A stretch of DNA of 37,269 bases from an uncultured Chlorobiaceae bacterium. Lineage in GTDB: Bacteria > Bacteroidota > Chlorobiia > Chlorobiales > Chlorobiaceae. Every line of letters begins with the position of its first letter. Position 1 is the first letter of the stretch. The stretch lies in NCBI GenBank assembly GCA_903869365.1, contig CAIPYV010000043.1, positions 1 to 37,269 on the forward strand. Direction: 5' to 3'. Position numbers and translations under genes: made by a program. Positions 23,091 through 37,269 of this stretch are shown in pieces. The notes under the pieces were generated by a model. That model was not told where the DNA came from, searched no databases, and saw nothing but the letters and a program-made list of their open reading frames with translations.

Positions 23091-25204
23091 TGCATTACCT
23101 TGTCAAGAGCTTCTGCAAGTATCTCCGGATCATGGATGGGCAAAAAGCAGGTACGGTCGATACAGAGAGATGCTTGCGGCTTGACAGCACCGGTCTGAAC
23201 GCTTTCCGGAAAGCGTTGGATTGCGATAAGTTCATTCGAAGCATGCATGATGACGTTTCCCGGCAGGTATCGCTCATCAATTACAGCTCGCAGTTGAGCC
23301 ATTTCAGGTGCGAGAAGCTCTCCTGAAAGAATAACCCTGCTTTTTCTTTTGCGAGCAAAGTTCAGGGCAACCAGCATCTGAGGCAGAGCATGGCTGTTTT
23401 CAGCAAGCATGGTGCCACATGACTTGATGGTTTCTTCCCCTCTGATTGAAAACTTTTCATCTCCCGTTATTTCGCTCAACCGCAGAAGGTTGAGGGCAGT
23501 GATCGAGTTTGCTGAAGGCTCGGCACCATCATAATCTTCCTTGAGTCTCAACGGTACGGAATTGTCATCAACAGCAGTGCTGAAATAACCTCCATGCGTC
23601 GTGTCGTAAAACAGGATATCCTGCAGTTCTGCAACTTCAAGAGCTGTCAGGAGAAATTGAGGCTCAAAAGATGCTTCGTACAAGTCTATAAGTCCCTGCA
23701 CAAAAAATGCATAATCTTCAGCTTTTCCCGCTATTGCAGCGTTGCCGTCTCTGTATCGGCGCAGCAGCCGGCCTTTTTTACGGTCATAGAGGTTATCCAG
23801 AATAAAACCTGCAGCTTTTCTGGCAGCAGCAAGGTATGGCTCGTGACGCAATACTCTGTACCCCTTTGCCAGGGCTGAAATCATCAGACCATTCCACGCT
23901 GTGAGTATTTTATCATCAAGAAAAGGCCTCGGCTTCTTTGCCCTTGCTCTATAAAGTTTTGTACGAGCATCATCAAGAAGTGCGTTGATCTCTTCAGTTG
24001 ACTTTCCAAACGTATCTGCTGTTTCCTCAACAGTGGCCTGATGCATCAGGATGTTTTTGCCGACTAACTCTCCATGTGGATCGTGCATGGCATTTCCTTC
24101 AACCCTGATGCCGTAGGTAAAGGAGAAGATCGCTGTGAGCGTTTCATCTCCGAGAATCTTTCGCACCTCCTCAGCACTCCAGAGGTAGAATGCTCCCTCT
24201 TTTTTTATGGTGTCGGACCCATCCTCAAAGCTGTCTGCATCTTCAGCTGAGTAGAATCCTCCATCAGGGGAAGTAATGTCACACAGCACATAGTTAAAAA
24301 TGTCCTGCGCTACACTTTTGTAAAATGCATTGCCACTGCACTGAAAGGCTTCGAGATAGGAGACGGCAAGCTGAGCATTGTCGTAAAGCATTTTCTCAAA
24401 ATGAGGAACATGCCAGCGAGCATCGGTAGAGTAACGAGCAAACCCTCCGCCGCCTTGACCTGCGACACCAATATGATCGTGAATTCCCCCCTTAGCCATT
24501 GTTTTCAGGGTATTGAGCGCCATCCTGAGAGCTTTTTTGTTCTCGGTATAGTGAGCGTAGTTGAACAGAAATTGCAGCAATACTGGACGGGGAAATTTCG
24601 GAGCACCGCCAAAACCTCCAAACTGAGCGTCGTAGTTTGTTTCAAGCCATTCGAAGCACTTATTCTGCGCCTCATCTTCCCCGGGCAGTGCAGTAGGATT
24701 CGTTCTCGAAAATTGATCCAGAGAACTGAAAAAACTGCAGGAGCGGTCAATAAGAGTTTTTTTATCACTCTTCCAAAAGCGAACTATGGATAAAAGAATG
24801 GTTTTAAATCCAGGCAGGCCATACCGCTCTTCAGGCGGAAAATAACTGCCCCCGTAAAAAGGCTTTCGTTCTGGAGTAAGCCATACGGACATAGGCCACC
24901 CACCATTTCCAGTGCTTGACTGAAGATAGTTCATATAGAGACGGTCAACATCCGGAAGCTCTTCACGGTCAACCTTGACCGAAACGAAGTTACGGTTCAG
25001 CAGTTCGGCGATTTCTCTGTTTTCAAACGATTCCCGCTCCATGACATGGCACCAATGGCAAGTTGAATAACCCACGGAGAGGAACAACGGTCTGTTTTCA
25101 TGTTTAGCTTTTTCAAAAGCCTCATCTCCCCATGCAAACCAGTCCACAGGATTCAGAGCATGCTGCAAGAGATAGGGACTTTTTTCAAGACCAAGCCTGT
25201 TCAT
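23087..25204 (-). CDS. YyaL/SSP411-type thioredoxin-fold protein (DUF255 plus six-hairpin glycosidase-like domain)
   Basis: This 705-residue protein starts with the DUF255 thioredoxin-like domain: [20 protein letters not shown], the redox motif Cys49-x-x-Cys52 in [31 protein letters not shown] and [18 protein letters not shown]. Residues after about 200 form an (alpha/alpha)6-barrel region ([75 protein letters not shown]). Length agrees with the family (about 650-750). The biochemical role is not established; it is widely conserved from bacteria to man (SSP411/SPATA20). The gene stands alone, with the hybrid kinase 103 bp upstream on the same strand. Confidence 0.92.
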
Positions 25205-25307
25205 TTTTCTATGTTCTTGATTTCTAAAGTCATGTCGTAATAATGTCGTATACTATGAAGGGGAAAAACGTAGAGAAGGGGATGAGATGTTACTGTACCG
25301 AGTATGA

Positions 25308-27857
25308 TTACTCGCCTTTATCTCCAAGATATTTGGCAAGAACTCCTTCAAGATCCGATTTGCGGATAGGTTTGGAGATATAATCGTTCATTCCGGCATT
25401 AATACATTTCTCCCGGTCACCTGGCATGGCATGAGCAGTCATTGCAACGATCGGAACATCAGGCGTGGCGCAAAGCGCAGGGTCATTTCTTATGATCCTT
25501 GTGGTTTCATATCCGTCCATTTCCGGCATCTGGCAATCCATTAACACCAGATCATATACTTTATTGCGCATAGCCTCCAGAGCATCTTTTCCGCCAGAAA
25601 CAACATCCGGACATAATCCCAGCTTTTTAAGCATGGACATGATTACTTTCTGATTAACCGGATTGTCTTCAACAACCAGAATATTGAATGTTGTCGTATC
25701 AGGTTTTTGTTCAGTTATGCTGTTATTCTCATCTGGTTTTTCTTGCCCCTGCTTTTCAACATGGAGAATAGCTGCAATAGAGTCAAAAAGCTCCAGACGT
25801 TTGACAGGTTTGTGGAGTAATTCAAACACCTGTGTACTGAAACGTTTTTTAATTTCTCCCGAGTGAATGGGCGAAGCAAGTATTATGACTGGACAGCGGT
25901 GTACAGTATAAACAGCGTCCATAAAAAGGTCAAGTTCATCGCCCGGCTTCTGCTGGTTATTAATATCCAGAATAACAGCATCCCAGAATGCAAATGGCTT
26001 TGCTTCACTTAGCCCTCTGTTGATCAACGCAAGAGCAGTTTCTATACTGGCAGCAGGGGTGGTGAGACACTGCCATGAATCCAACAGATCACAGAGCATC
26101 TCCAGGGCGGTGGGATTACTATTGACAACAAGAACTTTGGCTCTGGCAGCTTCATTCACGCATAACCGAAGCATTCTGGACGATGTTTTCTGTTTTTCAA
26201 GCTTGACATCAAAACTGAAAACGGAGCCTTTCTCTGGTTGGCTTTCCACCGTGATGTTGCCGCCCATTTTGTTGACAAGATAGTTGGAAATCGACAACCC
26301 AAGACCTGTTCCTCCGTATTTCCTTGATGTTGAACCGTCTGCCTGAATAAATGGCTTGAATATCGAAGCTATCCTCTCATGATGGATACCAATACCTGTA
26401 TCTCTGACTGAACACCTGATCAACACATGACTCTCAGTTTCCTCATCAGGAGTGATGCTCACCACAATATCTCCATGATGCGTAAATTTTATAGAGTTAC
26501 TGATAAGGTTGACAAAAATCTGTCGGATTCTTACCGGATCACCTCTCAGAGCAAAAGGAAAATTTCTGCCCGTTACTACCGTTAATTCCAGCCCTTTCAT
26601 TTGTGCTGAAAAGTTCAGCATTCCGCAAACATTTTCAAGGAGTTCGAGGAGATCAAAATCAACAATGTCGAGTTCAAGACAGTTTGCTTCAATCTTTGAA
26701 AAATCAAGAATATCGTTAATGATTTCCAACAGGTTTTGACCGCTGCAGATAATGGTGTCAACATATTTGCGCTGTTCAGGATCAAGCCGGGTATCAATCA
26801 ACATGCTCGACATACCAATAACCCCACTCATTGGTGTCCGAATTTCATGGCTCATATTGGCAAGAAACTGGCTTTTTGCTTCATTTGCTTCACTTGCTTC
26901 CCTTACTTTATCCTCAAGCTTACGGTTTATTTCCTGCAACTCTTTCCGAGCAAGGTTAGCATCTTCAATGAGGCTGAGAAGAACAGTTCTTTGATGTTCC
27001 CTGTCTAATTGATTATCCGATTTACTCTCTCTCCCTTCAGCGGGTTCATGTTCGATTAAAAAATCCTCTTCAATCATTGAGTTCAGGAGTAACTCATCTT
27101 TGTCGTAAGAAAAATCGTCGGCAATAATACCGTTATATTTCCTGAGATCCCGCCTCAACTCGTTAACAAAAGTTTTCAGCTCGTTGATGCGCAATTCTCT
27201 GCCTATCATCACGCGGTTAAAGCGCTCAAGGTCGTTCAGCATTCTTTTGAGCTCTTTTTCCATTCTCTTTCGCTCAGAAATATCTGAAACAATTATAGTG
27301 ACAGAGGTTACCGGGCCGTTGATGAGAGATGGACCAAAACGTGATTCAATGACAAGCGTTTCCCCGTTCGGAAGAGAGAGCTCACACTCGATGATTGCCG
27401 GTTCACCAGTCATGAAAGCCCTGTCTATAGCCTGATGATAACTGTTATTGTGATTTGGCTCAATAATATGTTCACAGAGGTGTTCGCCTATCTGCAGCAC
27501 ATTGTTATAACCAGGCAGGGATCGGTTGATATAGGTTATACGGTGTTCGCTGTCAATGGCAATAATGGTATCGGGACTGTTGACAAGCACAGAATTGATG
27601 GTATTCTGGCTCTCGCGTAATGAATTCAATGCCTCTTCGAGTTTCGACTGCGACAACTCGAGTTCAAAATTTTTATCTTCTAACTGTCGTTTAATATCTG
27701 AGAGTTCAATAGATTTTTTGATCAGTTTGATATTCTGATCAAGGAGGGCTGTCTGTTTCTGCAGAAGTTCCTGTTCAATGCGGCTGCTTCGCAATGAAGC
27801 TTTTTCAAGCTCTATGATGCGCAGCTGAAGATTATTGATCTCGGTATTTATCATCAC
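25308..27857 (-). CDS. hybrid sensor histidine kinase with one canonical and one degenerate receiver domain
   Basis: This 849-residue cytoplasmic protein has, in order: a long coiled coil (1-85), a PAS domain (about 85-200, NSVLVNSPDTIIAIDSEHRI), a second coiled coil (200-330), the phospho-acceptor domain with His337 in LANMSHEIRTPMSGVIG, an ATPase domain (NSIKFTHHGDI, RDTGIGIHHE, YGGTGLGLSISNYLV), a first receiver-like domain (about 572-700) and a canonical receiver (about 725-845) with Asp774 in LVLMDCQMPEMDGYETT and Lys in YISKPIRK. The first receiver lacks the acidic pair (VVNSNPT in place of VVEDN), so it is probably not phosphorylated normally. It has no DNA-binding output. The start (GTG 27857 or ATG 27854) abuts the stop of the FIST gene, so the two are coupled. 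Confidence 0.92.
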   Translation of the reverse strand: MMINTEINNLQLRIIELEKASLRSSRIEQELLQKQTALLDQNIKLIKKSIELSDIKRQLEDKNFELELSQSKLEEALNSLRESQNTINSVLVNSPDTIIAIDSEHRITYINRSLPGYNNVLQIGEHLCEHIIEPNHNNSYHQAIDRAFMTGEPAIIECELSLPNGETLVIESRFGPSLINGPVTSVTIIVSDISERKRMEKELKRMLNDLERFNRVMIGRELRINELKTFVNELRRDLRKYNGIIADDFSYDKDELLLNSMIEEDFLIEHEPAEGRESKSDNQLDREHQRTVLLSLIEDANLARKELQEINRKLEDKVREASEANEAKSQFLANMSHEIRTPMSGVIGMSSMLIDTRLDPEQRKYVDTIICSGQNLLEIINDILDFSKIEANCLELDIVDFDLLELLENVCGMLNFSAQMKGLELTVVTGRNFPFALRGDPVRIRQIFVNLISNSIKFTHHGDIVVSITPDEETESHVLIRCSVRDTGIGIHHERIASIFKPFIQADGSTSRKYGGTGLGLSISNYLVNKMGGNITVESQPEKGSVFSFDVKLEKQKTSSRMLRLCVNEAARAKVLVVNSNPTALEMLCDLLDSWQCLTTPAASIETALALINRGLSEAKPFAFWDAVILDINNQQKPGDELDLFMDAVYTVHRCPVIILASPIHSGEIKKRFSTQVFELLHKPVKRLELFDSIAAILHVEKQGQEKPDENNSITEQKPDTTTFNILVVEDNPVNQKVIMSMLKKLGLCPDVVSGGKDALEAMRNKVYDLVLMDCQMPEMDGYETTRIIRNDPALCATPDVPIVAMTAHAMPGDREKCINAGMNDYISKPIRKSDLEGVLAKYLGDKGE

Positions 27858-29066
27858 TTATTCTTCTTTTCCAAGCACCCAGAGAACAACGGTTTCATTA
27901 TGAAATTTTACCGATGAAAGTTCTTTTACGGTTTTATCAATAGGACCGATTTCTCCGTAGGTATAAAATCCTATCAGAGGGACATCCAGACCGATACACT
28001 CACGGACTGCGTCAACCTCCTCCTGTATTCGACGTCCAAGAACAAGTTTTCTTCCAACACAACTGAACATGATTATTGCCTGGGGGGTTGCCCCTATGAG
28101 AGCTTTTTTCGCCTGAACTGCAGCTTCCCTCGCTCCGTTGATGATATCTCCTCTTGAGGCAATAGTCAGTGTTACTTCACTGCCTTCAGGAATGGATGCA
28201 GCAAGCGAAATTGTTCCCTGTTCATGATCGACGGATAAACCGCACCGTAATTGAAACATGTTTTCACTATTGTCAGAAGGATTACGGTCAATGATACCAA
28301 ACGGATATTCCAGACACACCGCCGGAAGCCTTAATGCTCTTTCTTCCCCCAGAAAATCTTTATACATTTCAAGAGCATTGGTGTGTTCAAATTCTTTCAC
28401 CACATTTCCCTCTGAAGCAGTACAGGTAAAACTGTTTCCAATAGAGGTAAAACCGCTCCTTACACCGATACCAGTCCTGAACCCCTTCTTTGTCATCACC
28501 ATAAGACCAACAATAGCGTCTTTATAGACCATCCCGTTATAATACTGAAATGTATTTTCGAACCGTTCGTCATCGCCAAGGTAGCCGCCGGTAATCTCAA
28601 AATCTTTACCTAAAACCGACTGCAGACCCTCAAGAACCTTTAGTCCATCACCACCCATTCCGTTTGGAAAAACCAGAAGAGAAGCATGAGGATCAAAGGT
28701 GACTTTTTTTAGAATATCATTCGCCATTTCCACACTGCATGCCGCTTCATCACGACTCATGTCATGTCCGATACCAGTCACAAACTCAAGATCTTCGTTA
28801 CTGAGGGCCATGACAACCACTGATCCTGTAGAAAAACCTGCGGTTGAAATTTCTCCGGCAGTTGTTCCGCCAACCATAGGCAGTTCTCCGACAACGGAAG
28901 AAATTCCTGCAATCAGTTCGCGATGATTAAACTGCATCGCACCGAACACAATAACGACCTTGGGTACTCCGTCAAGCTTTCCAATAGCGCGTTTGGCAGC
29001 CTCTATGCCTGCAGCAAATGAATTTGGAAGAGAGCTGAATCCAACTCCTACTGTATTGTTCGTCAT
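27858..29066 (-). CDS. FIST N- and C-domain sensor protein
   Basis: This 402-residue protein matches the FIST family (F-box and intracellular signal transduction), proposed to bind small ligands such as amino acids. The N-terminal domain shows VVIVFGAMQFNHRELIAGIS, PMVGGTTAGEISTAGFSTGS, and LLVFPNGMGGDGLKVLEGLQ; the C-terminal domain shows EMYKDFLGEERALRLPAVCL, YPFGIIDR and PLIGFYTYGEIGPID. No signal peptide or membrane segment is evident. Its stop codon directly abuts the start of the downstream hybrid kinase, so it likely supplies the sensory input for that kinase. The next gene upstream (LuxR-type) is separated by a terminator. Confidence 0.9.
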   Translation of the reverse strand: MTNNTVGVGFSSLPNSFAAGIEAAKRAIGKLDGVPKVVIVFGAMQFNHRELIAGISSVVGELPMVGGTTAGEISTAGFSTGSVVVMALSNEDLEFVTGIGHDMSRDEAACSVEMANDILKKVTFDPHASLLVFPNGMGGDGLKVLEGLQSVLGKDFEITGGYLGDDERFENTFQYYNGMVYKDAIVGLMVMTKKGFRTGIGVRSGFTSIGNSFTCTASEGNVVKEFEHTNALEMYKDFLGEERALRLPAVCLEYPFGIIDRNPSDNSENMFQLRCGLSVDHEQGTISLAASIPEGSEVTLTIASRGDIINGAREAAVQAKKALIGATPQAIIMFSCVGRKLVLGRRIQEEVDAVRECIGLDVPLIGFYTYGEIGPIDKTVKELSSVKFHNETVVLWVLGKEE

Positions 29067-29297
29067 AGCGTATATTCCCAGAAGATCAATTTTTTAAATA
29101 ACTATCATAAACCTTGTTTTGCCTCTGGAAGTCGAACAGTAAAGCTCGTGAAGACACACAAAAAATGTTTCTGGTATCCTGAGACAAGAAGAGTATCACT
29201 AAAGTGGCGGGCGAAATTTCTCCTTTAATATACAATCAAGGCAAGCAATCTTCAGTGAATTTTCCACCATGCGGAAAAATTAGTAAAAGTTTAGAAT

Positions 29298-29338
29298 AAA
29301 AAAAAGCCTCCTGCATCAAACGAAGAAGAGGCTTTTTT
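29298..29338 (-). terminator. rho-independent terminator of the LuxR-type gene
   Basis: Read on the minus strand, AAAAAAGCCTC pairs with GAGGCTTTTTT around a loop of about 17 nt, followed by further T residues. It lies 22 bp after the stop of the LuxR-type HTH gene and about 230 bp upstream of the FIST gene, so FIST and the hybrid kinase must have their own promoter in 29067-29297. Confidence 0.8.
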
Positions 29339-29360
29339 AGATTGGAAGACGGACTGTCGC

Positions 29361-29864
29361 TTAAAAAGAAACCGAAAGATCAGAAAGGTAGGTTTTGATT
29401 GACTGGTGTTTTCCAAGGCCAAGCTTCTTATGCATCCGGTAGCGAATGCTTTCCATTCCTCTGGTCGATATACCTACAGAACGGGCAATCTCAATAGTGT
29501 CATAGTTCAACTTGACTAAGAGGCTGATTCTAAGTTCACGCTGGTTCAGGTTAGGATGCTTTTTCTGTAGTTTTGACAGAAAGAAGGAATCCGTTTCAGT
29601 CAGTTCAATGTTTAGCCTTTTTTCGATTGTTTCGGTTTCAATAAGGCTCAGGCATGAATCGGTCATAAGCCTTTTTACGCCGGCATCAATGTCCAGTGCG
29701 TGTATCTGGTCGAGAAGATTTCTCAACGCATTTGTTTTTTCAGCGATTGCAGTCGACACTCTTGTCAGTTCCATATCCTGGGTTGCCACTCTTGTTTTTA
29801 GAGAGGCGATCTCTTTTTCAAAATCAAGAGGAGATTTTTGGTTCTGTATTGCTTCTGTTTTCAT
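29361..29864 (-). CDS. coiled-coil protein with C-terminal LuxR-type HTH
   Basis: This 167-residue protein has an N-terminal helical, probably coiled-coil region (residues 15-90, FEKEIASLKTRVATQDMELT) and a C-terminal helix-turn-helix of the LuxR/GerE type (about 103-160): LNQRELRISLLVKLNYDTIE, IARSVGISTRGMESIRYRMH, KKLGLGKHQSIKTYL. The form is that of the short LuxR-like regulators common in the Bacteroidetes/Chlorobi group, which often end proteins with sensory or TPR domains; here no receiver or ligand domain is attached. It should bind DNA as a dimer through the coiled coil. A terminator follows, so it is a single-gene unit. Confidence 0.8.
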   Translation of the reverse strand: MKTEAIQNQKSPLDFEKEIASLKTRVATQDMELTRVSTAIAEKTNALRNLLDQIHALDIDAGVKRLMTDSCLSLIETETIEKRLNIELTETDSFFLSKLQKKHPNLNQRELRISLLVKLNYDTIEIARSVGISTRGMESIRYRMHKKLGLGKHQSIKTYLSDLSVSF

Positions 29865-30173
29865 TGTACTATCCTATGGGTTATTCAATGTTCGAAGTAA
29901 TGTATACGGTGGGAAAGCACATTTCTTTTCCCCATCGCATGCTTCCCATTATCCGAATAAACGTAATCATCACTTCTTCGACGTGTTATCGGCTGTAATA
30001 TGGATTTTTTTTACAAAATACCAATGAAATTCGTTTTTTCTGTTTAAAAATACTTTTTTATAAGTCAAGTACGCCGAAAAAAGTACTTGTCTTTTCCTTT
30101 CTCATAAGCCATTGCACGCTCTTTTTGCTCCAATTATTTTTTAGTATCTCTGCTATTTTTTCAGTATTCACTT
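29865..30173. other. AT-rich divergent intergenic region
   Basis: These 309 bases separate the LuxR-type gene (leftward) from the lipid kinase gene (rightward). No credible coding frame is present. A short inverted repeat CAAGTAC/GTACTTG (30066-30089, 10-nt loop) could be a regulator site or a chance hairpin. Long A/T runs dominate the right half. Confidence 0.4.
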
Positions 30174-31082
30174 ATGAAGAACAGTTCTCGTTATCTGTTT
30201 ATTTTTAATCCAGCGGCTGATAAGGGACGTGCGGCGAGTAAGGTTGCCTGGCTTAACGCGCTCCTTTTAGGAGAGAAAAACTCCGAAATGGTGACGACGA
30301 CTCATGCCGGACATGCAGAAGATATTGCTCGTTCAACAATTCAGGAAAAAAACTGCCTGATATCATGTGGTGGCGACGGAACTCTTCATGAAGTGATTAA
30401 TGCGGTAGCCGGAAAAGGGGTAACGGTCGGAATTTTACCTGTTGGTTCGGCAAATGATTTCAATAAAACCCTGAATCCTCATCATGGCTCAAACGCTGGT
30501 ATCAGTCATTTGTTCAATGCGCAGAGTAAAAAAGTTGATCTTGGGAGCGTTTCCTTCGGCAGTGCGGATCACAGGTATTTTATCAATTCTATGGGTATCG
30601 GCTTTACCGGAAGAGTTGCTAAGGCCGTTCAAGGTGCGCCTTGGTTAAAAGGTGAGCTGCGTTACGTTTACGCGCTTCTCAAGGTGCTTGCAGGGTATAC
30701 CTCGGAAAAAATGAATATTAAAATTACTCTGAAAGACTCTTTTCTGGAGCTTCATGAGGAAATTTTTGCTTTTTCAGTTTCCAATGGAAAAATCGAAGGG
30801 GGGAAATTCAAGATTGCGCCTCATGCTGAATTGTCGGATGGGCTGCTTGATGTGTGTATTCTCAAGGCGATATCGAAACATGAAATTTTCCGCTATGTGC
30901 TTAAATATCTTAAGGGAACCCATATCAATGACTCAAAAGTTCTTTACTGCAAAGCAAAGTCCGTGGAGTTGACATTAACGAAAGCGGATGTTATGCATCT
31001 TGATGGGGAGGTTTATGATAACATTCAGGGTAAGCTCGCCATTGCAGTTGTTCCTGAAGGAATTTCAATGCTTTACGATTAA
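30174..31082 (+). CDS. YegS/diacylglycerol-kinase-family lipid kinase
   Basis: This 302-residue protein is a member of the DAGK catalytic-domain family. Motifs: FIFNPAADKGRAASKV at the N-terminus, the nucleotide-binding CGGDGTLHEVINAVAGKG, ILPVGSANDFNKTL, and the C-terminal KIAPHAELSDGLLDVCILKA and VMHLDGEVYD. These proteins phosphorylate diacylglycerol or related lipids; the exact substrate (diacylglycerol, phosphatidylglycerol, undecaprenol) is not evident. The ATG at 30174 opens the frame. It is separated by about 180 bp from the radical SAM locus downstream and is probably not part of it. Confidence 0.92.
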   Translation: MKNSSRYLFIFNPAADKGRAASKVAWLNALLLGEKNSEMVTTTHAGHAEDIARSTIQEKNCLISCGGDGTLHEVINAVAGKGVTVGILPVGSANDFNKTLNPHHGSNAGISHLFNAQSKKVDLGSVSFGSADHRYFINSMGIGFTGRVAKAVQGAPWLKGELRYVYALLKVLAGYTSEKMNIKITLKDSFLELHEEIFAFSVSNGKIEGGKFKIAPHAELSDGLLDVCILKAISKHEIFRYVLKYLKGTHINDSKVLYCKAKSVELTLTKADVMHLDGEVYDNIQGKLAIAVVPEGISMLYD

Positions 31083-31260
31083 CTCATCTCCCTGCTTATG
31101 ACGCCCTTCAATACAATAATCGCATCGTTTTTTCAGGATTGATCTACGTCAGTCTGTTTGAGGAAATTGGATTTAATAATATTATTTATTACCATGGAAT
31201 TGGTTGCTGAGATTGATTTGTTGTAACGAATTATACTTGTGTAACCACTACTCCAACAGT

Positions 31261-33243
31261 ATGATCATGCCGAAAACACTTGTTGATTTTCGTCTTCCTC
31301 TCGAGGCTACCATTGACCTGACGTATCGTTGTAACAACAACTGTCTTCATTGCTGGTTGAGAATGCACTCCACAGGTCATGAACAGAGCCGCGAGCTCTC
31401 GTTCGAGGAGATCAAAGGGATCGTTGACGAAGCCCGCGCTTTGGGCACACATCGCTGGTCAATATCCGGCGGGGAGCCGATGCTGCGGCCAGATTTTCCG
31501 GAGATATTCAATTATATTACAGCAAAGGCACTTTCCTATACACTCAACACCAACGGCACCCTCATTACCCCTAAGCTTGCACGGTTGCTCAAACGCAAGG
31601 GTTCCAAAATGGTTGCTCTCTATGGTGCCAGCACAGCGACCTACGACAAGGTCACCCGAAATTCAGGCGGTTTCGAGCATGTCATGCAGGGATTCCGTTA
31701 CCTCAAGGAAGCAGGTGCCGGATTTATCGTCCAGCTCATTCCAATGAAAGCCAACTGGCACGAGTGGGATCAAATGATTGAGCTTGCTCAATCCCTCAGC
31801 GACCATTGGCGAGTTGGTGCTCCCTGGCTGTACTTATCGTCGTGCCGGGACGCAGCACTCAATGCCGAAATATCCCGCCAGCGTCTCGACCCTCGGGATG
31901 TGGTGAACCTCGATAAACCAGATATCTCCTACGAAGAGACAATCTTCCATCAGTGTGGCCATACCGAAGGCGACAGTCGACTCTTTGCCAGCTGCATCGC
32001 AGTGCGGCGTGACTTCCATATAGATCCCTACGGGGGCATGACCTTCTGCTCTTTAATCAAAGACCCATCCATGCGTTACGATCTCCGCAAGGGCACACTC
32101 CGTGACGGATGGGAAAAATTTATCCCCTCGATTGCCGACCGCGAGTTCGGCAGGGAGGAACATCAAGAGAACTGCGGCTCATGTGAACTCAGCAAGGATT
32201 GCCGCTGGTGCGCGGTCTACGGCTGGCTGGAGCACGGCCGGTTTTCAGCCCCCGTTGAATACCTCTGCGAAGTTGCCCGCGAAAACAAGCGCTTCAAGGA
32301 TGAGTGGCAGGTGAACCATCGCCGTTACTTCAAGATCGCCGACATCACTATTCGTGTCGAAAGCGATCTGCCGATTGACGACGCCACCTTTAATTCGAAA
32401 TTCTCCTCTTTTCATGTTGACGCTCCCGGGCAAGACACGGTCACCATCCGCCACCACTTCGGCATACCCGACCTCAAAGGCCAGAATCTCGGCAAGGAGG
32501 TCTACAGGAAGGCGCCATGGGCTATTTACCGTAAGAATGGCTCTTCTATCTATCTTGGGATATCTTCTCAGACGGACGACCCTTCCCTGCACCGCGTTGC
32601 TACCTTTACAGCCGACCATACCAGTGTTCGCATCTATCATGATGATTTGCACGAAGAGAGCTGGCGCAAAGGCGACCTCCACTCCCTGACTCTGTTTTCC
32701 TCCGACCAGATCCTTATTGTAAGGTTGCTGGCCGATCGTCAGGGCTGCTGCCTTCAATCGACAGGTGCCATGATCAATGGAGCAGGAGTGCTTTTTGTCG
32801 GACATTCCGATATAGACAAATCAACGATCACAAACTTGCTGATTGAAGCCGGAGCCAAAGGAGATAGAGAGGTCGAAATTCTCTGTGACGCCTGCAATAT
32901 TGTCCGTCGTCATGGTGAAAGCTGGCAGCTTTATGGTACCTGGAACCATGGTGATGTCCCGCAGGTCTCTTCCGCTGATGCACCTCTTCGGGCAATCTGT
33001 TTTATTGAACAGGCCACGGAAAACAGCATCACGGATCTCACCGATCGCAATGAGGTTATGCGCAGGCTGCTTGCCTGCCTTATTCACCCCTTTTTCGCCG
33101 AGGACTGGTGGGAGAAAACCCTTGATCTGATAGAGCCAATGGCACGGCAGGTACCCTGTTATGTCATGCACTTCGACAAGGGCGGAGAGATTATTGGTGA
33201 AATAGAAAAAATCGTAACTGCAGAAACCGAGGCATCCCTATAG
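31261..33243 (+). CDS. radical SAM/SPASM peptide-modifying enzyme fused to an HPr-kinase-like domain
   Basis: This protein has 660 residues from ATG 31261; a TTG at 31204 gives a less likely longer form. Residues 1-345 form a radical SAM/SPASM enzyme: SAM-cluster Cys24, Cys28 and Cys31 in YRCNNNCLHC, GGEP at 70-73, and SPASM cysteines at 232, 245, 263, 305, 308, 314, 317 and 336. From about residue 350 to the end it matches HPr-kinase-like proteins of peptide-modification loci: NHRRYFKIADITIRVESDLP, PWAIYRKNGSSIYLG, ICFIEQATENSI and VPCYVMHFDKGGEI. The P-loop reads GHSDIDKST (514-522), with Asp where the family usually has Gly, and the following motif LCDAC (541-545) has lost the usual DD and R, so the kinase half looks inactive. 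A radical SAM gene follows 17 bp downstream. Confidence 0.88.
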   Translation: MIMPKTLVDFRLPLEATIDLTYRCNNNCLHCWLRMHSTGHEQSRELSFEEIKGIVDEARALGTHRWSISGGEPMLRPDFPEIFNYITAKALSYTLNTNGTLITPKLARLLKRKGSKMVALYGASTATYDKVTRNSGGFEHVMQGFRYLKEAGAGFIVQLIPMKANWHEWDQMIELAQSLSDHWRVGAPWLYLSSCRDAALNAEISRQRLDPRDVVNLDKPDISYEETIFHQCGHTEGDSRLFASCIAVRRDFHIDPYGGMTFCSLIKDPSMRYDLRKGTLRDGWEKFIPSIADREFGREEHQENCGSCELSKDCRWCAVYGWLEHGRFSAPVEYLCEVARENKRFKDEWQVNHRRYFKIADITIRVESDLPIDDATFNSKFSSFHVDAPGQDTVTIRHHFGIPDLKGQNLGKEVYRKAPWAIYRKNGSSIYLGISSQTDDPSLHRVATFTADHTSVRIYHDDLHEESWRKGDLHSLTLFSSDQILIVRLLADRQGCCLQSTGAMINGAGVLFVGHSDIDKSTITNLLIEAGAKGDREVEILCDACNIVRRHGESWQLYGTWNHGDVPQVSSADAPLRAICFIEQATENSITDLTDRNEVMRRLLACLIHPFFAEDWWEKTLDLIEPMARQVPCYVMHFDKGGEIIGEIEKIVTAETEASL

Positions 33244-33260
33244 TTAAGCCATTTCCTATT

Positions 33261-34463
33261 ATGGATGAAGTCGCAAATTACGTACAAAAGTTCAAGCCGC
33301 ATGAGTTCAGGATCTGGCAAGGCAAAAAACCGCTGTTGAGCCAGATAGACATCGAACTTACCGAGCGTTGCAACAACAATTGTCTGCACTGCTGCATCAA
33401 CCAGCCGGAGCATGATGCCGACGCTCTCAGCCGGGAGATGAGCACGGATTTTGTCAAAGGGATCGTAACGCAGGCTGCAGCTCTCGGGTGCCTTACCGTC
33501 CGTTTTACAGGCGGTGAACCGCTTCTTCGTTCCGATCTGGCGGAACTCTACCTTTTTGCACGCCGTCTTGGCATGCAGGTTATTCTCTTTACCAATGCTC
33601 GCCTGATCACCGCTGAACTTGCTCTTCTCCTTGCCAAATATCCCCCTGGCCGGGTGGTTGAAGTTTCCGTCTATGGTATTACCCCTGAGTCTTATGACCG
33701 TGTCGCAGGTCATGACGGTGCATTCGCGGAGTTCCATCGTGGTGTCGATTTGCTTTTGCAGCACAAGATTCCCTTTATTGTGAAGAGTCCAAAGCTCAAC
33801 ATACTCAAAGATGAGCAGGACGCCTTTGAAGTATGGGCAGCGACCATTCCCTCGATGGATAAACTGCCAGGCTACTCCATGAACTTTGATCTCCGTTTCC
33901 GTCGCGATGATCCCCTCAAGAACGCACGCATTGCAAAGCTTCGGGCAACCCCCGAAGAGACCGTAGCCGTGTTTTCACGAACTCCACACTATCTCAAAGA
34001 TATGGGTCAGTTCTGCGACAAGTTCATGGCTCCTCCGGGCGATAAGCTCTTCAATTGTGGAGCCGGTCATGGAACCTGCATCGACGCTTACGGTAACGCA
34101 CAGCTCTGCCTCCCGCTGCGTAATGAGGCAACTGTGGTAGACTTGCATGAAGTGCCCCTGAAAACAGCGCTTGAGAAAATATTTCCTGCTATGCGTGAAA
34201 TCAAGGCGACGAACTTCGACTATCTTCACCGCTGTGCCCGGTGTTTCCTTAAAGGCCTCTGCGAGCAGTGTCCGGCAAAGTCCTGGATGGAGCACGGCAC
34301 CCTCGATACGCCGGTAGAGTATCTCTGCACAATAGCTCATGCTCAGGCACGCTGTCTTGGACTTCTTGGCGAAGAGGAGCGTGCCTGGGAAGTCCAAGAT
34401 TGGAAAGATCGTGTGGCAAGCTTTGTCCATACAAGCAGCTCTGAAGGCAACACATCCACATAA
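33261..34463 (+). CDS. radical SAM/SPASM peptide-modifying enzyme
   Basis: This 400-residue PqqE-like protein has the SAM-cluster motif with Cys37, Cys41 and Cys44 in TERCNNNCLHCC, then FTGGEPLLRSDL (84-87 is GGEP). The SPASM domain has cysteines at 252, 266, 273, 283, 325, 328, 334, 337 and 356, enough for two auxiliary [4Fe-4S] clusters (CARCFLKGLCEQCPAKSW, DTPVEYLC). It is of the type that cross-links or epimerises residues in a ribosomal peptide with the help of a PqqD partner, which is encoded next. It corresponds to the ScmE/ScmF class of the SynChlorMet cassette, from memory and not by search. The start ATG is 17 bp after the fused enzyme, the PqqD-like start 53 bp after its stop. Confidence 0.9.
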   Translation: MDEVANYVQKFKPHEFRIWQGKKPLLSQIDIELTERCNNNCLHCCINQPEHDADALSREMSTDFVKGIVTQAAALGCLTVRFTGGEPLLRSDLAELYLFARRLGMQVILFTNARLITAELALLLAKYPPGRVVEVSVYGITPESYDRVAGHDGAFAEFHRGVDLLLQHKIPFIVKSPKLNILKDEQDAFEVWAATIPSMDKLPGYSMNFDLRFRRDDPLKNARIAKLRATPEETVAVFSRTPHYLKDMGQFCDKFMAPPGDKLFNCGAGHGTCIDAYGNAQLCLPLRNEATVVDLHEVPLKTALEKIFPAMREIKATNFDYLHRCARCFLKGLCEQCPAKSWMEHGTLDTPVEYLCTIAHAQARCLGLLGEEERAWEVQDWKDRVASFVHTSSSEGNTST

Positions 34464-34516
34464 GAGTGTTTTGCAAAAAGTTCAACTTTTGAAAGCTATA
34501 AAAATGAGATTCCTTC

Positions 34517-34831
34517 ATGGATATTACCCTTGACCAAATTTGCGTCACCTCGGAAGACGTTGTGGCTCGTGTTATTGAAGATGAATTGATCATTGTGCCC
34601 CTTGCGTCAGGTATCGGTGATATGGACGATGAACTCTACACCATGAACGAGACCGGCAGGGCAATCTGGTCGCGTCTTGACGGCGAAAAAACCTTGCAAA
34701 GCATTGCTGACGACCTTGCAGAAGAGTTCAGTGCAGCGCCCGAAGTCATCGAAAAAGACCTGCTCGGCTTGATAACGGAACTGGTACGCCGAAAAATGGT
34801 GATCGTCCACAAGGAGAATGCTCCTCAATGA
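34517..34831 (+). CDS. PqqD-like peptide chaperone (ScmD-like)
   Basis: This 104-residue protein has the PqqD fold pattern: an N-terminal beta region (ARVIEDELIIVPLASG), then YTMNETGRAIWSRLDGEKT, LQSIADDLAEEFSAAPEVIE and DLLGLITELVRRKMVIV, which is the winged-helix leader-peptide recognition element. PqqD proteins bind the leader of a precursor peptide and hand it to a radical SAM enzyme. One copy serves three radical SAM genes here. Its TGA overlaps the ATG of the peptidase gene (ATGA at 34828), so these genes are translationally coupled. The call does not depend on the exact cassette name. Confidence 0.92.
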   Translation: MDITLDQICVTSEDVVARVIEDELIIVPLASGIGDMDDELYTMNETGRAIWSRLDGEKTLQSIADDLAEEFSAAPEVIEKDLLGLITELVRRKMVIVHKENAPQ

Positions 34832-35340
34832 GCGACACCTACGTAAAATTAAACCATGAGCCGCATACCATGCCCGGCCTTGCCATTGCCGAATTGATGG
34901 AAGCTGTGCTGGAAAAGAATATTCCGTTTCGGTTTGCAGCGCCAGGCTTCAGCATGACTCCGTTTATCTCGGATGGAGATATAATTACCATTTCACAGCT
35001 TCCCCCGCGACTTCAGGCGGGGGATGTTGTTGCATTCATCAATCCCGGTTGCAGAAAACTGATCGTACATCGCATTGTTCATGTTTCTGAAAAAGGCTAC
35101 CTCATCAAGGGCGACAACAACCCTGAACCTGACGGGCGAGTACCGCGTTCAAGTATCATCGGGCGAGTTGTCAGGATAGAGCATCACGACCGGCAAGTTC
35201 GACTTGGTCTCGGTATTGAGCGTTATGTAATAGCCTGGCTCTCAAAACGAGAGTGGCTGAAGCCGCTCTTATGGCGAGTCTGGCGTTTTATCAAACCATT
35301 TTGTCGCAAAGAGAATTGTTTGAACCCTTCAAAATTATGA
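34828..35340 (+). CDS. soluble S24/S26-type signal-peptidase-like protein
   Basis: This 170-residue protein resembles the Sec11/SipW type of signal peptidase: Ser42 in APGFSMTPFISDGD, then AGDVVAF, the His81-Arg motif in LIVHRIVHVS and Asp96 (and Asp102) in LIKGDNNPEPDG, followed by IIGRVVRIE. A Ser/His/Asp set rather than Ser/Lys is thus indicated. Unlike true signal peptidases it has no clear N-terminal membrane anchor; the C-terminus (YVIAWLSKREWLKPLLWRVW) is amphipathic and basic. In this context it is a candidate leader peptidase for the modified peptide. The start overlaps the PqqD-like stop and its TGA overlaps the next ATG (both ATGA), so all three are coupled. Confidence 0.85.
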   Translation: MSDTYVKLNHEPHTMPGLAIAELMEAVLEKNIPFRFAAPGFSMTPFISDGDIITISQLPPRLQAGDVVAFINPGCRKLIVHRIVHVSEKGYLIKGDNNPEPDGRVPRSSIIGRVVRIEHHDRQVRLGLGIERYVIAWLSKREWLKPLLWRVWRFIKPFCRKENCLNPSKL

Positions 35341-36488
35341 CACATTGCACCTTACTTGAAATGCAGGACTTCACCCTCTGGGCAAAAATGAAGGAACGCG
35401 GCGCACTCCTCTCCTTCGACCTTGAAATAACTGCGCGGTGCAACAATGCATGCCGTCACTGCTACATCAACCTCCCTGCCGCCGACAGGGAAGCTCGCTC
35501 AAAAGAGTTGACGCTGCAGGAAATCAGCTCCATTGCTGATCAGGCTGTTGCACTCGGAGCCTTATGGGTGCTCATTTCAGGTGGCGAACCACTTCTGCGT
35601 GAAGACTTTGAGGAGATCTATATGCTCCTGAAAAGAAAAGGACTGCTGGTCTCTGTTTTCACCAACGCGACCTTGATTCGAGACGAACACATTGTCCTCT
35701 TTAAAAAATACCCCCCCCGCGATATCGAAATAACTGTTTACGGCGCTACCGAGGAGACCTACGAGAGAGTTACCGGATGCCCCGGATCATTCATTGCCTT
35801 TACAAACGGTCTCAACCGCCTCCTTGATGCTGGAGTCAAAGTCCGCCTCAAGGCAATGGCTATCCGATCCAACTTCCACGAACTTCCCGCAATAGCAGCA
35901 TTCTGTTGTACCCATACCAAAGACTACTTCCGTTTTGATCCCCAGCTCCATCTCCGTTTTGACGGCAATAAAGAGCGCAACCAACTTATCAAGTCTGAAC
36001 GACTCACACCGGAAGAGATTGTCGCGCTCGAAAAGGCGGACAAAGATCGGTTTGCCTCACTCCGAAAAAGGTGCAATACCCTCATTAATGATGCGGTTGC
36101 CCATAGAGGCTGCGACCATCTTTTTCATTGCGGGCTCGGTAACGGCAGCTTCACCATTGGTTACGACGGCACCTTCCGGCTCTGCTCGTCGCTCTGGGCT
36201 CCTGAGACAATCTACGACCTGCGTCGGGGAACACTCCGTGAAGCATGGGAAGAGTTTGTGCCACAAGTGCGTGACATGCGATCCACTCGGCCCGAGTATC
36301 TCGAGAACTGCTGCATCTGCCCGATCGTCAATCTCTGCCTCTGGTGTCCTGCACACGCATACCTTGAAACCGGTAAACTGGACACGCCTATAGAGTACTT
36401 CTGTCAGGTTGCTCGCGCAAGAGCTGCCGCTATTCAGGAAGCAACCCCGTCCTCTCCTGTTTTAGGCAATGCACAGCATTCGGCATGA
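35337..36488 (+). CDS. radical SAM/SPASM peptide-modifying enzyme
   Basis: The third radical SAM/SPASM enzyme of the locus has 383 residues from the ATG at 35337, which overlaps the preceding TGA by 4 bp; a frame extension to 35253 lies inside the peptidase gene and is unlikely. Cys35, Cys39 and Cys42 form the SAM-cluster motif in TARCNNACRHCY, GGEP is at 82-85. SPASM cysteines are at 265, 283, 325, 326, 328, 334, 337 and 356 (NCCICPIVNLCLWCPAHAYL). The C-terminal pattern DTPIEYFC parallels DTPVEYLC and APVEYLC in the two other enzymes, so the three are paralogues. A 418-bp non-coding region follows. Confidence 0.9.
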   Translation: MTHCTLLEMQDFTLWAKMKERGALLSFDLEITARCNNACRHCYINLPAADREARSKELTLQEISSIADQAVALGALWVLISGGEPLLREDFEEIYMLLKRKGLLVSVFTNATLIRDEHIVLFKKYPPRDIEITVYGATEETYERVTGCPGSFIAFTNGLNRLLDAGVKVRLKAMAIRSNFHELPAIAAFCCTHTKDYFRFDPQLHLRFDGNKERNQLIKSERLTPEEIVALEKADKDRFASLRKRCNTLINDAVAHRGCDHLFHCGLGNGSFTIGYDGTFRLCSSLWAPETIYDLRRGTLREAWEEFVPQVRDMRSTRPEYLENCCICPIVNLCLWCPAHAYLETGKLDTPIEYFCQVARARAAAIQEATPSSPVLGNAQHSA

Positions 36489-36534
36489 TTACAGCAATAC
36501 GGTTCATCCCGTAATTACAGTTCCTGAGAGAGGA

Positions 36535-36760
36535 TGTGTTTTGTTTTGAGACACTGTTGCTGAGGATAAAGGTAACAGTGCTCATTGCCATCGATTGCTG
36601 ATAGAAAACTCCCGATATCCTGTTATCAAGTTATAGAACGTTTTGGTTGTGTTTTATTTTGAAACAGCATCGCTGAAAGTAAAGCAACAGTGCTGACTGC
36701 CATCGATTGCCGATAGAAAACTCCTAACACTCTATTATTAAGTGATATAGCGGTTTTATT
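36535..36760. repeat. decayed tandem direct repeat, two units of about 112 bp
   Basis: Unit one begins TGTGTTTTGTTTTGAGACA at 36535 and unit two TGTGTTTTATTTTGAAACA at 36648. The most conserved block is CCATCGATTG followed by CTGATAGAAAACTCC or CCGATAGAAAACTCC, at 36588 and 36700. Similarity continues to about 36760 with substitutions and one small indel. It does not encode a peptide. It may be a duplicated regulatory element or a relic of a lost duplication of the locus. Confidence 0.7.
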
Positions 36761-36766
36761 TTCTTG

Positions 36767-36799
36767 TATACGATGTATATATTATATATGTTTCGTATA
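36767..36799. promoter_or_regulatory. AT-rich inverted repeat upstream of the precursor gene
   Basis: The arms TATACGA (36767-36773) and TCGTATA (36793-36799) flank 19 bases of alternating A/T (mainly TATATA). It lies about 110 bp upstream of the peptide start. A regulator binding site or part of the promoter is plausible; an overlapping TTGTAT could be a -35-like element, but no -10 is certain. Confidence 0.35.
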
Positions 36800-36906
36800 T
36801 ATGGCATAAAATTTGCAATGCTATTGTTGATAGTTAAATAGAACTCAGTTGTTAAGGTTTATAAGAAAACGATGTCGTTCAATCTTCGATGATAAAGGAG
36901 TCCAAC

Positions 36907-37098
36907 ATGGAACTGAAAAAAAAAGAGTGGAAGCATCCAGAGCTCATAGTTTTACTGAAGAGCAGACCGGAAGAGCGCATTTTAGATAATTGCAAGCTTC
37001 CACCTATGTATGCTCATCCTGGTCAATCGAACCTTCTCTGTCAAGATCACCAAGGCGGCAATGGTTGTGTTCACTGTACCGCATTGGGTGTGTCATAG
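36907..37098 (+). CDS. Cys-rich RiPP precursor-like peptide, 63 residues
   Basis: The gene starts at ATG 36907, six bases after a strong GGAG ribosome binding site (AAAGGAGTCCAAC); an ATG at 36889 in frame is less well placed. The N-terminal half looks like a leader: MELKKKEWKHPELIVLLKSR then PEERILDNCK, with a Trp, Pro-Glu-Leu and Pro-Glu-Glu pattern that I recognise from precursor peptides of radical SAM loci. The C-terminal half is a Gly/Cys/His-rich core with Cys29, Cys45, Cys54 and Cys57 (LLCQDHQGGNGCVHC) and ends in Gly-Val-Ser, so the last residue is serine. It has no membrane segment. Its position between three radical SAM genes and a HPr-kinase-like gene makes it the likely substrate. 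Confidence 0.78.
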   Translation: MELKKKEWKHPELIVLLKSRPEERILDNCKLPPMYAHPGQSNLLCQDHQGGNGCVHCTALGVS

Positions 37099-37152
37099 TT
37101 TTTTCTATAGTACATCTCTTTTGACGTTCAGTAATTGCTTATTCATTGAATT

Positions 37153-37269
37153 ATGCAGAATATACTCCTCAATCATCAGCTTCCCCAGTCAGGTCAACTT
37201 GGCCATTCCTTCGACCTCAGTAATGTTACCATAAATCATCGTCGCTATTTCCAGATTGCCGGTATGACG
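37153..37269 (+). CDS. HPr-kinase-like protein, free-standing (5' part only; window edge)
   Basis: Only 39 codons are inside the window. The ATG at 37153 has an in-frame TGA two codons upstream (37147-37149), which supports this start. The sequence ends with VTINHRRYFQIAGMT, which closely parallels NHRRYFKIADIT at the start of the HPr-kinase-like half of the fused enzyme. It is therefore a second, unfused copy of that domain (ScmC-like), 54 bp downstream of the precursor gene on the same strand. Whether its P-loop is intact lies outside the window. No clear ribosome binding site precedes it. Confidence 0.75.
   Translation, partial: MQNILLNHQLPQSGQLGHSFDLSNVTINHRRYFQIAGMT

Follow-up and report, generated by a model that had tools for sequence, protein, structure and literature searches.

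The lasso peptide kinases PadeK, ThcoK and PsmK phosphorylate the C-terminal Ser residue of their precursor peptides by using a catalytic His-Lys-Asp-Asp motif, and in the paeninodin-type clusters, the phosphorylation is sometimes multiple, and a homologue of nucleoside triphosphate (NTP)-transferase can decorate the phosphate with a hexose (PMC9266682). The linear polyphosphorylated peptides (LPP) are a family of ribosomally synthesized and post-translationally modified peptides (RiPPs) in which, as in the lpp cluster of P. alginolyticus, a RiPP recognition element (RRE) and an HPr kinase (HPrK) go together with a leader peptidase that is SpI-like and has a Ser-His-Asp triad (PMC13381572). 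Another RiPP, phospeptin, is poly-phosphorylated in its final form, and its maturase, of the lanthipeptide type that acts by phosphorylation and elimination, carries a mutation at the elimination site (PMC9259500). Here, we describe a gene cassette at positions 31261-37269 of contig CAIPYV010000043.1 (GenBank assembly GCA_903869365.1) from an uncultured Chlorobiaceae bacterium; this contig, 37,269 nucleotides in length, is hereafter called the window. We consider it fairly likely that the cassette represents an undescribed family of radical S-adenosylmethionine (SAM) RiPPs, the products of which are probably phosphorylated at the C-terminal Ser residue.

The cassette is an operon-like run of genes, all on the forward strand, and every part that the initial annotation had named, namely three radical SAM/SPASM genes, a PqqD gene, a peptidase gene, a peptide of 63 residues and two HPrK-like sequences, was indeed present. 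The first gene, rA-HK (31261-33243), encodes a radical SAM/SPASM enzyme (Pfam Radical_SAM, 88 bits) with a C-terminal HPrK-like domain (about residues 345-655), and is followed by a second radical SAM/SPASM enzyme, rB (33261-34463), for which profile matches were found and the nearest solved relatives are SkfB and PqqE. Next are a PqqD-type RRE of a conserved family (34517-34831; Pfam PF05402, 59.7 bits against a cut-off of 23.4), an S26/S24-type, archaeal-like signal peptidase with the Ser-His-Asp triad as the proposed leader peptidase (34828-35340; TIGR02228, 58.7 bits against a cut-off of 51.85), and a third radical SAM/SPASM enzyme, rC (35337-36488). As the start codon of rC, ATG at 35337 was preferred over GTG at 35253, because the homologues begin there and a 4-nt overlap with the peptidase gene results. 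The precursor peptide of 63 amino acids (36907-37098), with AAAGGAG as a good ribosome-binding site shortly upstream of the ATG, is composed of the leader KKEWKHPELIVLLKSRPEERILDNCK, in which the W-x-x-P and C-K motifs are included, and a Cys-rich core with a terminal C-x2-C-x5-Ser. A stand-alone HPrK-like protein then starts at 37153. In the gene order, the intergenic gaps are 17, 53, -4 and -4 nt, followed by 418 nt before and 54 nt after the precursor. The initial annotation was right in taking this for a radical-SAM RiPP locus that combines PqqD and a precursor with a peptidase and a kinase-like domain in fused form.

The C-terminus of the precursor is under a marked constraint. From searches with hidden Markov models (HMMs), we curated 89 precursors at 60 loci; the seeming non-Ser ends at L059 and L110 were left out of this count, the open reading frames (ORFs) there looking broken or frameshifted in draft contigs with leader and tail in neighbouring frames. 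The leader has the shared pattern K-x-W-x-x-P-x-L-x-V-L-x-R-x-x-P-E-E-x-V-L-x-x-C-K, of which W, P and C are invariant in 48 aligned precursors, while the hypervariable cores usually contain three Cys residues and keep only the Cys and the last Ser. The C-terminal residue is Ser in 77 and either Ser or Thr in 84 of the 89 precursors (mean of 18 and maximum of 30 in 1000 trials of core shuffling), and representatives sharing less than 50% identity behave likewise (81/86); a terminal Ser is found in 10% of other small ORFs. Where Ser is replaced, Thr is the commonest residue (7/12). Also, Cys is found exactly at position -7 in 64 of the precursors (shuffle mean 7.6, maximum 18), and a second Cys is commonly at -10. 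The tail of the window peptide, ...GCVHCTALGVS, fits this pattern, and the codon of its C-terminal Ser, the proposed phosphorylation site, occupies positions 37093-37095. No known precursor family in NCBIfam or Pfam gave a significant match; a weak match common to most members was to the paeninodin family (E 0.036). Several different precursors occur at 17 of the 60 loci. At L042 (17534-19382), one cassette is followed downstream by five distinct precursors, arranged consecutively and encoded on the opposite strand, which suggests that one machinery serves many substrates.

The kinase-like parts of the cassette show only weak similarity to HPr kinase in sequence models, with PDB profile matches at the P-loop region of 1jb1, 2qmh, 3tqf and 1ko7. 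The confident structural model of the stand-alone protein (pLDDT, the predicted local distance difference test, 90.8) adopts an HprK/PEPCK-type fold, matching PEPCK with a Z of about 13 over about 245 residues and also HPrK entries (Foldseek E 3.5e-5); PEPCK and HPrK belong to one superfamily. After removal of duplicate records, the catalytic quartet His-Lys-(Asp/Glu)-Asp is retained in 63 of 71 kinase domains, being H-K-D-D in most relatives. In the window, the stand-alone kinase has an intact quartet of His-Lys-Glu-Asp, with Glu for the first Asp, and an intact P-loop (GHSGVGKS), whereas the domain fused to rA has Gln-Lys-Asp-Ala, with Gln for His and Asp-Ala for Asp-Asp, and a broken P-loop (GHSDIDKS). 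Having lost both the catalytic residues and the P-loop, the fused domain is therefore a pseudokinase and, judging from these substitutions, catalytically dead.

Just 39 residues of the stand-alone kinase are inside the window (37153-37269), because the window is one entire contig (C43) of a draft genome (136 contigs, 2.93 Mb). Positions 37131-37269 are, however, identical to 25924-26062 at the end of contig C48 (139 bp) and absent from the rest of the genome. Reading over this overlap, we obtained the full kinase of 332 amino acids (L003:18943-19941, reverse strand), which falls into one family with the C-terminal extension of rA. The stand-alone copy clusters with kinases that likewise stand alone in a relative, G010, and the fused copy clusters with L107, L042 and L044 (moderate support). 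As the two window copies do not group together, a recent in-place duplication is not favoured as the source of the second kinase. The order of precursor and then kinase is seen twice in G010, and the window precursor, too, is closest to one of those in G010; a precursor-kinase module may accordingly have been added to an older cassette. A methyltransferase-like gene (L037:7329-8132) within the double cassette of G010 is a possible additional tailoring enzyme.

Relatives of the cassette were collected by searching an alignment of rB from three genomes against 84,980 species genomes, which gave 79 related loci in Chlorobiaceae, several Desulfobacterota, WOR-3, Omnitrophota, Aminicenantes, Methanomicrobia, Chloroflexi, Poribacteria and others. 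With HMMs made from the window and its relatives, most of these loci were found to share the precursor(s), rA fused to the kinase domain, rB, PqqD, the S26 peptidase, rC, an exporter and often an NTP-transferase. Gene content was counted at those 34 loci where rB is flanked by more than 3.5 kb on either side: rC was present in 33, the kinase domain and PqqD each in 32, rA in 24 (23 as the kinase fusion), the S26 peptidase in 23, the ATP-binding cassette (ABC) exporter in 18 and the NTP-transferase in 16. The gene set is well beyond chance, since its order is kept in dozens of loci and precursor homologues occupy the equivalent position in a relative; in this comparison of neighbourhoods, the locus was thus conserved as a unit. 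We also noticed minimal versions (L108, L111, L113, L116, L117 and L118, all but the first being from Nitrospirae and Desulfobacula) equipped with a single rC-like radical SAM gene, PqqD, an HPrK-like kinase and, in most, the S26 peptidase. Their precursors terminate in Ser/Thr, and because the kinase and this end are retained together, the terminus appears to be tied to the kinase and not to the number of radical SAM enzymes. At L116, radical SAM and ScmC-like genes that form an Scm-like set lie directly downstream of the minimal version.

In the rA, rB and rC families, the radical SAM CX3CX2C motif and the SPASM Cys residues are invariant; for rA, this applies to every radical SAM/SPASM Cys among 46 relatives. 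The predicted structure of rA-HK has two domains (mean pLDDT 88.8), and the nearest solved structures to the SPASM enzymes are the peptide maturases SkfB, PqqE and SuiB. In a tree of 54 radical SAM sequences, rA, rB and rC form three separate clades with support of 1.0, apart from ScmE and ScmF. The triad of the S26 peptidase is likewise conserved in relatives (Ser and His in 45/45 each, Asp in 43/45). A search for phage homologues of rC gave generic weak radical SAM matches only. In their predicted action on Cys-rich cores, these SPASM enzymes resemble those of sactipeptides and ranthipeptides (SkfB, AlbA and RumMC types), but the window proteins match no family model of these classes, of which, to our knowledge, neither the kinase fusion nor the C-terminal Ser is a part.

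The initial annotation had regarded the locus as a SynChlorMet (ScmC-ScmF; TIGR04248-TIGR04251)-like one with extra parts. The plan is certainly shared: PqqD, two SPASM enzymes, an HPrK-like protein and a short leader with W-x-x-P are found in both, the Scm cassette in this genome also has an S26-type peptidase and an ABC exporter, and the window proteins match all four Scm models weakly. This is a similarity of plan only, and membership in the family was rejected on the basis of model scores and the tree. In the window, all the Scm models scored far under their cut-offs: ScmD gave 28.6 bits (cut-off 100), ScmE 58-84 and ScmF 71-89 bits on the SPASM proteins (cut-off 400 for each), and ScmC 33.6 and 19.1 bits on the kinase-like sequences (cut-off 125). 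Indeed, a genuine and complete Scm cassette is located on contig C118 of the same genome (L004; C118:3000-20000), with 129.5 bits for ScmD, 628.5 for ScmE, 603.7 and 597 for ScmF and 270.8 for ScmC. The clades of rA, rB and rC are separate from those of ScmE and ScmF, and the Scm precursors end in Val and are devoid of the C-x2-C-x5-S tail. It is hence very unlikely that the window cassette is a member of SynChlorMet with extra parts, and common ancestry of the two is possible. The Scm cassette on C118 is accompanied by two nearly identical precursors of 66 amino acids (MKLKWQKPKLVDLADGL...), which match no family model and are thus candidate Scm substrates.

Among the known systems nearest to the cassette is also the paeninodin type of lasso peptides, with which the cassette has in common an HPrK-like kinase with the His-Lys-Asp-Asp motif (H-K-E-D in the window), a conserved C-terminal Ser (77/89 precursors), a W-x-x-P leader and an NTP-transferase partner. 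In place of the lasso cyclase and B2 protease, however, the window cassette has radical SAM enzymes and an S26-type peptidase; no further ORF of the size of an asparagine-synthetase-like cyclase or a B2 protease was found in the cassette on C43 or its continuation on C48. The discrete RRE, the HPrK-like kinase and the archaeal-type (SpI-like) signal peptidase are shared with LPP, as are the NTP-transferase and an MsbA-like exporter in many loci. LPP differs in that its leaders carry Y-x-x-P, the phosphorylated residue is Ser3 of the core, radical SAM enzymes are not involved, and the family belongs to Bacillota (PMC13381572). In contrast, W-x-x-P and not the LPP motif Y-x-x-P-x-V-L-x-H-Q was found in all aligned precursors of the new cassette, which has a C-terminal Ser, three SPASM enzymes and a distribution over many phyla; while no other maturase is involved in LPP, two or three SPASM enzymes are encoded in most loci of the cassette and one in the minimal versions. 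Phospeptin resembles the proposed product in being a phosphorylated RiPP but is made without radical SAM enzymes. In the open-access literature, of which our coverage was incomplete, we found no report of radical SAM/SPASM, HprK and signal peptidase in one cluster. What would be new is a single conserved unit that brings together predicted functions of maturation by radical SAM enzymes, phosphorylation by an HPrK-type kinase and leader removal by an SpI-type peptidase.

Several observations weigh against phosphorylation of the C-terminal Ser. At L038 (G024) and L107, the catalytic quartet is changed to T-Q-D-R and S-K-A-E, respectively, and L049 has no kinase domain; nonetheless, the precursors of all three end in Ser, and no other close copy of the kinase was found in their draft genomes, which were searched whole. 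The precursors at L037:2540, L042:18918 and L100 end in Pro or Cys yet retain Cys -7, and part of the C-terminal constraint is therefore unrelated to Ser. The Scm precursor ends in Val though ScmC retains its P-loop, and in LPP the phospho-Ser lies close to the N-terminal end of the core; an HPrK-like kinase thus need not target a C-terminus. Also, the join of C43 and C48 is deduced from the 139-bp overlap. One could suppose, then, that instead of being a peptide kinase, the HPrK-like protein is a binding scaffold or ATP-driven helper, with the C-terminal Ser being read by a radical SAM enzyme or the exporter; this would fit the fused domains in the window, L038 and L107, which are retained without the catalytic residues while the Ser persists, as well as the fixed distance of Cys -7 from the C-terminus even with Pro or Cys in place of Ser. 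We nevertheless regard such a role as rather unlikely, given that the full quartet is strongly conserved among the kinase domains, that an intact kinase copy is beside the precursor where the fused copy of the window is dead, and that Thr is the commonest stand-in for Ser.

PqqD and SPASM enzymes also make pyrroloquinoline quinone (PQQ) and mycofactocin, and C-x2-C pairs could bind a metal; the peptide might hence be considered a precursor of a redox cofactor or metal carrier instead of a secreted product. Such a role is highly improbable, however, because little besides the Cys and the last Ser is kept in the core, many loci have several different precursors, and an exporter is often present. 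Furthermore, the PQQ and mycofactocin models gave at most 98 bits against cut-offs of 381 for PqqE and 265 for the mycofactocin maturase, and few genomes of the genus carry the cassette (3/37).

This narrow distribution in the genus and the raised G+C content of the cassette (50-54%, against about 42% upstream, in the window from 25000 to 37269) make horizontal acquisition of the cassette probable. Between rC and the precursor lies an imperfect direct repeat (36569-36769, forward strand), two copies of 89 nt with a spacing of 112 nt and 76% identity, and this is its single locus in the genome with no match elsewhere. No exporter was found beside the window cassette; the closest one in this genome belongs to the Scm cassette and is 71% identical to the exporter of the sister cassette in G010.

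From the gene content, orthology, catalytic motifs, predicted folds and statistics of the C-terminal Ser and Cys -7, we infer the phosphorylation and where it occurs, the chemistry of the cross-links, the sequence of steps and the sharing of an exporter as follows. PqqD would bind the W-x-x-P leader of the precursor, and rB and rC, usually aided by rA, would modify the Cys-rich core, most likely by cross-linking it at the conserved Cys residues through thioether formation or other radical chemistry. The HPrK-like protein would put one or more phosphates on the C-terminal Ser; in this genome, with the fused copy being dead, this activity would be supplied by the stand-alone kinase downstream of the precursor. 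The signal peptidase-like protease would then cut off the leader, and an ABC exporter would secrete the product; in this genome, the exporter of the Scm cassette may serve both systems. A cross-linked peptide with a C-terminal phospho-Ser is thus proposed on the grounds that parts with precedent (the HPrK-like kinase, the leader peptidase and, in relatives, the NTP-transferase) are combined with SPASM enzymes. Much more speculatively, and with little probability in our estimation, the C-x5-Ser tail could be a site of ring formation, in which the kinase phosphorylates the C-terminal Ser and Cys -7 displaces the phosphate directly or via dehydroalanine to give a seven-residue C-terminal thioether ring on the radical-SAM-cross-linked peptide; if so, lanthionine-like rings would be reached by a new route, through a kinase of the HPrK type that in most cases is fused with a radical SAM enzyme.

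In conclusion, the cassette gives context to SynChlorMet, with which it has a plan in common, and its three clean orthologous SPASM families, together with many substrates of variable core, provide a system for dissecting the role of each enzyme. The conserved last Ser and Cys -7 turn an uncharacterised radical SAM locus into predictions on specific residues. If the proposed phosphorylation is true, RiPP phosphorylation by HPrK-like kinases would extend past lasso and linear peptides into a radical-SAM family of bacteria and archaea, in which the radical SAM enzyme and the kinase would often be one physical protein.

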